Of a DNA stretch of 64,000 nt, positions 14,450 to 44,714 are shown in pieces (the first letter of the stretch is position 1; every line of letters starts with the position of its first letter). Below the pieces are notes generated by a model. It saw only the letters and a program-made list of their open reading frames with translations, was not told the DNA's origin and did not search any database. Where the stretch lies: the NCBI GenBank assembly GCA_021821055.1, contig JAKACX010000001.1, positions 1-64,000 on the forward strand. Direction: 5' to 3'. The DNA is from Bacillota bacterium (GTDB lineage: Bacteria; Bacillota; Bacilli; Alicyclobacillales; SLC66). A program made the position numbers and the translations under genes.

Positions 14450-14516
14450 CTTGTCTTCCGCCTCCCGTGCACTCAATACTCCACAGAGTATATAGCCGGA
14501 AAATGGCCTTGTGCCT

Positions 14517-14600
14517 GGGGCCAGCCCATATGCTGCGCCCTGCCCAAACAGCGCGGCTGCGCCGCACAACTCGCGACGGCACAGCACACGGGCCGTCCCC
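14517..14600 (-). ncRNA. Structured repeat element, copy 1 (candidate RNA)
   Basis: On the minus strand, arms 14600-14578 and 14539-14517 pair over 22 of 23 positions, with four G-U wobbles and one mismatch; the wobbles work only in this orientation. The 38-base loop starts GUCGCGAGUU and holds an inner hairpin GCGGC-GCA-GCCGC. The same loop recurs at 43954-43990 on a stem of different sequence. It fills the gap between the inositol-monophosphatase-type gene and pncB. Function is unknown. Confidence 0.6.
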
Positions 14601-14612
14601 CAAGCTCACCTT

Positions 14613-15443
14613 TCATCCTTCGTTGGCGGCTGGCGTGTCCACATCGAGGTCGCGCAAGAGCGCGTCGTGAATCCGCCCGTTTGTCGCCACCGCATGCCTC
14701 GTGGTCAACGCGTAGGCGCCGCCGTGCACATCGGTGGCGCTACCGCCGGCCGCCTGCACCATCACCATGCCCGCGCACAGGTCCCACGCATTCAGGTCGT
14801 TCTCCCAGAAGCCGTCCAGTCGGCCGCACGCGACGTACGCCAATTCGAGCGCGGCGGTGCCGAGCGCGCGCACATTGCGCACGTGGCGCCCAAAGCGCCT
14901 GATCTGTTCCGCGTTGCGCTCGCGGTACTCCCCGTTGGGAAATCCGCTGGCGAGCACCGCGTTTGCCAGGCGGGGCTCGGGGGACACGCGCATCGGCTGT
15001 CCATTCAACGTCGCACGGCCGTCCGCCGCACAGAACATCTCGTCGCGCATCGGATCGTAGATCACCCCAAGCGCCGGGACACCGGCGACGACGAGCCCGA
15101 TCGACACCGCGCACAGCGGAATCCCTTGAATGAAGTTGAGCGTTCCGTCGATCGGATCGACCACCCACAGAAACCTCTGGTCCGCGTGGGCCGCCGCCTC
15201 GTGCGCCGCCGCCGCTCCCGGTTCGACGCTCTCCTCGCCAAGCAGCGCGCTGTCTGGAAAGTCCTCGCCCAGGACCGCCTCGATCCGCTTCTGGCACGCC
15301 TTGTCCACCTCGGTCACGAGGTCGTGCGGCGACGACTTTTCCGTCGTCATCCGGGGGCGCCCAATCCACTCCAAAATGAGCTCTCCCGCGCTGCGCGCCG
15401 CCTTCTCGGCCGACGCGAGCGCCCTCATCGAATCGAGTGCCAT
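14613..15443 (-). CDS. Inositol monophosphatase family phosphatase
   Basis: 276 residues from ATG 15443, preceded by GGAAAGGA; the frame extends to 15521 without support. The metal and phosphate motifs are LVTEVDKACQ, GEES, WVVDPIDGTLNFIQGIP (residues ~95-111) and the C-terminal NAWDLCAGMVMVQAAGG, all intact. The family dephosphorylates inositol-1-phosphate, histidinol phosphate or other sugar phosphates; SuhB/YktC-type enzymes are similar. No pathway neighbours fix the substrate. A structured repeat follows its stop codon. Confidence 0.92.
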   Translation of the reverse strand: MALDSMRALASAEKAARSAGELILEWIGRPRMTTEKSSPHDLVTEVDKACQKRIEAVLGEDFPDSALLGEESVEPGAAAAHEAAAHADQRFLWVVDPIDGTLNFIQGIPLCAVSIGLVVAGVPALGVIYDPMRDEMFCAADGRATLNGQPMRVSPEPRLANAVLASGFPNGEYRERNAEQIRRFGRHVRNVRALGTAALELAYVACGRLDGFWENDLNAWDLCAGMVMVQAAGGSATDVHGGAYALTTRHAVATNGRIHDALLRDLDVDTPAANEG

Positions 15444-15630
15444 ATCCCACATCCTTTCCCAACAGACTTCGCGCGGGAGAGGAATCTCCCGCCGTTTCGA
15501 CAACAGTCTACAATGCGTCACGTGAAACCTTTTTCAGCATCCCGTTCCCACTATACAGCGGAAACCGCCGGACGCCAAACGGGCGTGCCCCGTCGACACG
15601 CCAAAAAAACCACGAACCCCAGCGGCTGAT

Positions 15631-43438: not shown

Positions 43439-44714
43439 GTGGCTATCTCCCCGGTCCTTCGCTGTCCATGTTTCACCGCTATCAGTATAACTCGCACTGT
43501 CTTAAAACGATCTTACAGTCGGTCCACCCGGAAAATACGAGTTCACCTGTACCGCCCCATCTGCGGCGCCCGATTGAGTCGCATTTTCATCCTCCGCTCT
43601 CGTGCGGATGCGCCGCACATGGCAAGCCCAGGATGTCGCGCGCGAGGGTCGCGCGGGTCACCCTGGCGCACAGTAGGCGCTGAATGTGGTGCAATCCCTC
43701 CCACCGCCTTCCATTTTGTTGAGTGTTAGCACCGGTTTTTGGTGCTGTGCGCGGAATAAGACCAAGAAGTAGTTCTAAAATTACAATTATTAGGCGGCTT
43801 ATGCGCAGTTCTTGTGCTTATGCTACCTGACCCAGCCGTGCGTGCCGCCGGCAGGCCGTGTAGGGGTGCATCACATCCCCCACACCTATTGATCGCAGTG
43901 ATATTCGTTGCATTGTATGGGGGAATGTGCCAGCCGCCCGTATCCCTTTGCTCCTGCTCGACAACGCGGCTGCGCCGCGAAACTCGCGACGAGCAAAGGG
44001 ACACGGGCGACCCAGCAAGCCTTCAGCCTGCCGCTGGCGCTGTGCTGGGACACGGCTGGCCACGGCTGGCGCACCGCCGCATCGGCGTGCGACCGTGACG
44101 CAGGGAATTTTCATCCTGCGTTCCCGGCGCGCCCGCGCCATGGGGCCTCACCTGCACGGCCGCGGACAAGTCCGCAAGTATTTCAGCCACCTGATGACGC
44201 CCAAGAGTTGATGGCGTAGGGTGTCCGGGAGTTGACCGATAAGTTGACCGAAGCCGTGAATCAGTCAAGGCTTCAAAAATGCTCATAGGCCCTTCGCTGG
44301 TATGTCCATGCTCTAAGGGACCCGTGCAGACAGCCAAGGTGAGCCTGTCAAGGCACTCCTTCCAGCCTTGACAGGCGATGAAGGGCACCCATACTGGTGA
44401 TGGTGGCTGAATCCACGCACTTGTGGATTCAGCACTGGCCCACAAGCGGTCGATGCCAAATCCCCATAAAATGTTGCAGCAAGTCGGGCATCAATGTCCA
44501 AGTCGTGAAGTAAAACGGACAAGACCGGTCGTCAGCGCCATTTTGGCGCCAAAAAGTGCTGAGGTCGGATATTTTAGGCTTCCACAATCATCGCCCATAA
44601 TCGATCGAATAGGGCATTCGGACATGTTTGCCGTCTAAACCAGGACAGCTTGCGCCGTCGACCTTTGGACTGGATAGCTTATCAGTAACACGCAAGTTCG
44701 TTCCGTGACAAGGG
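43439..44714. other. Long non-coding stretch
   Basis: About 1.3 kb without a convincing gene; short open frames in it look like noise. It holds the second structured repeat (43936-44008), a 10-base perfect hairpin CTGAATCCAC/GTGGATTCAG at 44407-44432, and AT-richer DNA around 43720-43800 and 44440-44640, unlike the GC-rich genes around it. It may be the scar of a lost mobile element or hold unrecognised RNA. No transposase homology could be seen. Confidence 0.5.
43936..44008 (-). ncRNA. Structured repeat element, copy 2 (candidate RNA)
   Basis: On the minus strand an 18-base arm (44008-43991) pairs with 43953-43936, with one G-U wobble. The 37-base loop GUCGCGAGUU...GAGCAG nearly matches copy 1 and has the inner hairpin CGCGGC-GCA-GCCGCG. 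The distal stem sequence differs fully from copy 1, but pairing is kept. Confidence 0.6.

Follow-up and report, generated by a model that had tools for sequence, protein, structure and literature searches.

A family of short hairpin-bearing mobile DNA elements that insert directly 3' of NAG and exchange their stems

High-copy palindromic repeats are common in bacteria, and their spread is rarely visible. IS608 inserts 3' of TTAC, which is kept in the left flank, and carries guide sequences at the feet of its hairpins (PMC5934647; PMC6006769). The movement of REP elements is attributed to enzymes related to the IS200/IS605 transposases (PMC3733652; PMC8266576).

The locus studied here is a hairpin lying in a 64,000-nt stretch of DNA (the window). 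It forms the central part of a mobile, non-autonomous DNA element whose family is dispersed in this genome and its relatives. As in IS200/IS605 elements and their non-autonomous derivatives, insertion occurs 3' of a short fixed target that is kept on the left, without duplication; strand-specific, subterminal imperfect hairpins lie near both ends (here hairpin 1 and stem 2 in types M, C and D), and the right end finishes with a target-like sequence. The family differs from them in that its members contain neither tnpA nor tnpB and no autonomous copy with the same ends was found, in that its hairpins and target are unlike those of the IS found here, and in the extra covarying pairing of hairpin 1 with stem 2 in types C, D and E. 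With the GTAG REP/REPIN/BIME repeats associated with RAYT, it shares a high copy number, intergenic location, palindromes, TAG junctions, mosaic structure and chaining. Here, however, TAG ends the 3' side of the element, the left NAG belongs to the target, and the REP arrangement, a palindrome of 20-40 nt with GTAG at its 5' foot, is not seen; the plan is longer, with two hairpins, no RAYT is linked, and stems are swapped among subfamilies within one genome. Classical MITEs are likewise short, gene-less, dispersed and intergenic, whereas the present elements have neither terminal inverted repeats (ACCnCC... against ...GGGTAG) nor target-site duplication. The CGTC-tagged palindromic repeats (Rickettsia RPE and others) are also high-copy palindromes for which no dedicated transposase is known (PMC3733652), but their tag and anatomy are different. 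The way in which stems are exchanged and the clear insertion rule set the family apart, which otherwise probably represents a variant within the IS200/IS605-REP group.

The hairpin and its family

The hairpin of copy 1 was confirmed on the minus strand, with a 24-nt 5' arm, a 38-nt loop and a 23-nt 3' arm (14601-14517). An earlier note on this DNA had described 14517-14600 as one of two copies of a structured repeat; this interval is only the middle of the element, and the two copies are members of two among at least six subfamilies. The near-identical loop that it had seen in two places was recovered by a core pattern allowing up to 3 mismatches, which gave 2 matches in the window with 0 expected. 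The features are as follows.

14493-14632 (about), minus strand: copy 1, a type A element (nhmmer, type A consensus positions 21-159; ORFs; sequence)
14578-14601, minus strand: 5' arm of the long stem of copy 1, GGGGGACGGCCCGTGTGCTGTGCC (sequence and fold)
14540-14577, minus strand: fixed loop of 38 nt, common to types A and B, with the inner hairpin GCGGC-GCA-GCCGC at 14553-14565
14517-14539, minus strand: 3' arm of the long stem of copy 1 (sequence and fold)
43921-44143, minus strand: copy 2, a type B element (nhmmer, type B positions 8-199; fold)
43954-43990, minus strand: fixed loop of copy 2, 37 nt (sequence; core-pattern match)
43525-43624, minus strand: a type C element with both ends recognisable, at a distance of about 300 nt from copy 2 (nhmmer, type C positions 7-106)

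The minus-strand RNA of copy 1 has a minimum free energy of -74.9 kcal/mol (z -6.66), equalled in none of 200 shuffles, while the plus strand gives -43.4 (z -1.0). Copy 1 sits between a NAPRT-like ORF (12929 to about 14460, minus) and an IMPase-like ORF (14613-15521, minus), whose last codons and stop come from the element. Its left end is decayed or truncated beyond recognition and its right end has decayed to TTTTCCGGCTA, with the stem intact. This stem differs from the type A consensus at two positions, both of them wobbles, and on these two changes, its only basis, a local role of copy 1 in a transcript is possible. The observation that the wobbles suit the minus strand was correct, but most of them are ancestral to the subfamily and so provide no independent evidence of selection. 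For copy 2 the minimum free energy is -91.6 (z -7.4), and its 3' side runs into another repeat and not into the usual ATTTTCCGGGTAG end. Next to copy 2, at 43747-43823 (minus) within about 43624-43921, lies a member of a different repeat family, GCATAAGCACAAGAACTGCGCATAAG...CTTATTCCGCGCACA, of which nhmmer detected 9 copies in 1.35 Mb, several of them beside type B or C elements.

Searching the whole draft genome (2.34 Mb, 74% complete) for further copies gave 31 matches to the core pattern, against 0 for the control. Among 60 relatives the pattern occurred once only, as a 3-mismatch match; a collection of genome contigs gave 7 isolated matches in unrelated bacteria, taken as chance, and viral contigs gave none. 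Alignment of the core copies showed that conserved sequence extends further on both sides. Type A comprises copy 1 and about 5-8 others. Type B, to which copy 2 belongs (46 matches), shares its loop with type A on a different stem, in agreement with the swapped but paired stem described before: the inner stem is GCTGTGCC/GGCACAGC in type A and CCCTTTGCTC/GAGCAAAGGG in type B. Type C, with a 108-nt consensus and 43 matches, has the ends of A and B and a different interior. In 1.35 Mb of sequence stretches from this genome, nhmmer located 105 element pieces, nearly all intergenic under a simple ORF model; the downstream gene is co-oriented slightly more often than not (58 of the 90 intergenic pieces).

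The common plan is NAG/ACCnCCAT-(hairpin 1)-...ATGAAAAT-(stem 2)-ATTTTCCGGGTAG, where the slash marks the insertion junction, with fixed ends ACCnCCAT... on the left and ...GGGTAG on the right; once relatives are included, the start reads A(C/T)nnCAT. REP-like mini elements of 66 nt and larger structured elements of 105-230 nt are united under one plan. Some copies are chimaeras: in L019 the 5' arm is of type A and the 3' arm of type B, L014 is of type A with a 3' part from type C, and L165 begins as type C and has the 3' half of type B. The exchange points lie at or near the shared GCGGCGCARCCGC hairpin. Elements also form chains sharing TAG, on contigs C8 and C99 of this genome and on C134 and C314 of the relative G016. 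At another locus (L202, contig C72), a type C element is split, with about 600 nt separating its left half from its right half, and inspection of the locus revealed no transposase-like ORF. One type B copy (L159, about 15066-15200 on G000:C29) carries a run of GGCTGGCACAGACCCAGC repeats on its 3' side, and shorter runs occur in many other type B copies.

Type D (about 105 nt) and a variant of it, type E, occur in three sister species (G007, G013 and G016) that belong to the same family but to a different genus; some copies are identical tandem units sharing TAG. These species also have the 66-nt mini form M, which has two hairpins and is present in tens of copies per genome. M-like copies were also detected in G006, of the same family, and in G031, so that the elements extend to another family within the order. 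Closely matching copies are confined, in the genomes searched, to a few genera of this one order. The tandem type D pairs of G016 (L220/L224 and L218/L219, on C134 and C314) are nearly or fully identical within a locus and different between loci, as if each pair had gone in as a dimer or become homogenised. A c-di-GMP-I riboswitch (L213, 1161-1250; E 2e-14) is located on C134, about 250 nt upstream of a type D tandem pair.

Insertion directly 3' of NAG

The element, ACC...TAG, inserts directly 3' of NAG without duplication or loss of the target: the left AG is the target's, and the right TAG is the element's own and forms the right junction. This rule can be read directly, because the sister species hold filled and empty sites for the same insertions. 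Four type D insertions (L218, L242, L229 and L225) were compared in this way across the three species. At L218, between argJ-like and argB-like genes, the filled site reads GGTGAG/ACCCGC...GGGTAG/AAGGAG and the empty site, in two species, GGTGAG/AAGGAG. At L242, CAGTGAG/ACCCGC...GGGTAG/GAGGGTG corresponds to CAGTGAG/GAGGGTG, again in two species. Since the left junction at both loci is TGAG and the right one GTAG, no simple target duplication is involved. The empty sites of L229 and L225 place insertion after CTAG and TTAG, and a fifth, weaker case with a diverged empty homologue (L232) agrees with the rule.

Flank BLAST within the own genome returned no empty sites. There, a type C copy on contig C73 interrupts a degraded Y1 transposase (tnpA) pseudogene, and removing exactly ACC...ATAG (103 nt) yields an open frame that aligns without gaps to an intact homologue from the sister genus, with 75% identity. 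Both flanks contain GCAAGA, making the junction ambiguous by the flanks alone; its placement follows from the in-frame solution and the empty sites of L218 and L242. Of the three possibilities raised in the earlier note, a small RNA, a control element or a non-autonomous mobile element, it is the third that is supported, by more than 100 copies, conserved ends, and the empty sites in sister species and in the transposase pseudogene.

Of 71 left ends, 36 have TAG and 15 have GAG immediately before ACC (51/71 together); the last three bases of the right ends are TAG in 41/71 and CAG in 11/71, the sequence beyond being mixed. All five type C copies ending in CARGATAG lie 3' of AARGAG/CARGAG-like sites, compared with 1 of 28 others (Fisher p 2.5e-5, which serves only as a guide since the copies are related). 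This correlation of target preference with the right end means that target choice seems to follow the element's own end.

Mechanism and candidate enzymes

The short target kept on the left, the lack of duplication, the hairpins near both ends and the target-like right end point to single-stranded DNA transposition of the IS200/IS605 style. From these features we infer, with a probability of about 0.72, that the elements are non-autonomous and moved in trans by a transposase of the HUH type (IS200/IS605- or REP-like). They would move as folded single-stranded DNA, which a HUH tyrosine transposase would cut and join, as for IS200/IS605 and REP elements. Each insertion leaves a new TAG on its right, a potential target for the next element, from which chains would arise.

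Among the Y1_Tnp and TnpB loci compared, in the own draft and the three sister species, no transposase gene with matching ends was found; the gene may be missing from the draft, lost, or of another class. The own genome contains two Y1_Tnp matches, both degraded. Among the 27 Y1_Tnp loci of the sister species, only one has a nearby element (type M, L287), and the Y1 IS groups inspected have ends unlike those of the elements, where comparable. The IS200/IS605 TnpA proteins found here were accordingly rejected as partners, and an origin from TnpB or omega RNA was discarded likewise, the two TnpB loci having unrelated ends. No guide complementary to NAG was seen by inspection at the hairpin feet; IS608 itself also uses non-canonical contacts (PMC5934647; PMC6006769).

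A tentative alternative, which we consider rather doubtful, is a mobile class moved by an unrecognised enzyme, neither an IS200/IS605 TnpA nor a RAYT, that would read the fold and not the sequence. Stems would then be replaced in concert, and each subfamily would have its own target preference (TAG, GATAG or AAGAG) following its right end.

A tyrosine or integron-type recombinase acting between NAG sites and either a single-stranded site in folded form or the GGGTAG/ACC junction of a circle seems unlikely. Conservation of structure rather than sequence, the short AG shared at the crossover and the chains of elements would suit such an enzyme, but the shared sequence is AG only, neither attC-like boxes nor a GTT triplet were seen, and an unsystematic look beside the copies showed no integrase.

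It is equally improbable that these are REP/REPIN elements in the strict sense whose RAYT gene has been lost or was left unassembled. GTAG or GATAG at the junction, small palindromes in many intergenic copies, the 66-nt two-hairpin M form and the IS200-like insertion rule all resemble such elements. Yet TAG is the 3' end of the element and not the 5' foot of a single palindrome, the length is 66-230 nt and not 20-40, and a survey places GTAG repeats in Proteobacteria, Cyanobacteria and Chloroflexi (PMC3733652). Moreover, no RAYT lies near the copies, the 27 Y1 loci of the three sister species encoding only short proteins of the IS200/IS605 type.

Exchange of stems and covariation

Aligned together, types D/E and C form two helices: one of 15 bp, in which the 5' arm of hairpin 1 pairs with part of the interior of stem 2, and one of 10 bp, stem 2 itself. 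In these helices 91% of cells are paired, versus 26-44% when slid by 1-3 columns, and seven pairs show changes on both sides. The covariation score is 0.151, compared with 0.067 for shuffled alignments, none of 500 shuffles reaching it. Hairpin 1 covaries too and competes for the same 5' arm. In the M copies, GGCGC/GCGCC is swapped for GCTGC/GCAGC or GGTGC/GCACC. Both stem arms therefore change together while loops and ends stay fixed, the same pattern as between copy 1 and copy 2. This exchange of stems as units, with loops kept, makes recognition based on the fold testable.

If RNA were the selected form, G-U pairs would be expected to exceed A-C mismatches in number, which is not the case in the relatives: G-U occurs in 18 cells (8 in P1, 7 in P2 and 3 in h1) and A-C in 26 (6, 11 and 9). 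RNA-specific selection is not supported, and on these counts folded single-stranded DNA accounts for the pairing no less well than RNA does. In type B, G-U occurs 18 times and A-C 7 times, an excess to which a single inherited variant contributes six counts. A further possible RNA signal, the strand asymmetry seen in 18/18 type B copies, was rejected, as it reflects shared ancestry and lies within the background spread of single sequences. The paired, differing stems had earlier been read as selection on RNA structure; selection or a concerted process acting on pairing stands, given the covariation in C/D/E and M, and the RNA part of that reading does not. Strand-specific folding with covariation need not imply a functional RNA.

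A structured RNA, small or cis-regulatory, kept for its function and multiplied by duplication, with the minus-strand transcript as the form that matters, is very unlikely: the strong minus-strand fold of copy 1, its position between two co-directional ORFs, its two wobble changes, the covarying stems and the mostly intergenic copies with co-oriented downstream genes would agree with it, but there are precise insertion junctions with empty sites, no G-U excess in the relatives, no close copies beyond a few genera of one order among the genomes searched, and one copy that disrupts a gene. No Rfam family matched the window at gathering score, and at four loci no family came near or above its gathering score for the element.

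In G031, two chained M-like elements (L324, 1520-1645 on contig C17) have entirely different stems, which suggests that there are many diverged copies that BLAST misses.
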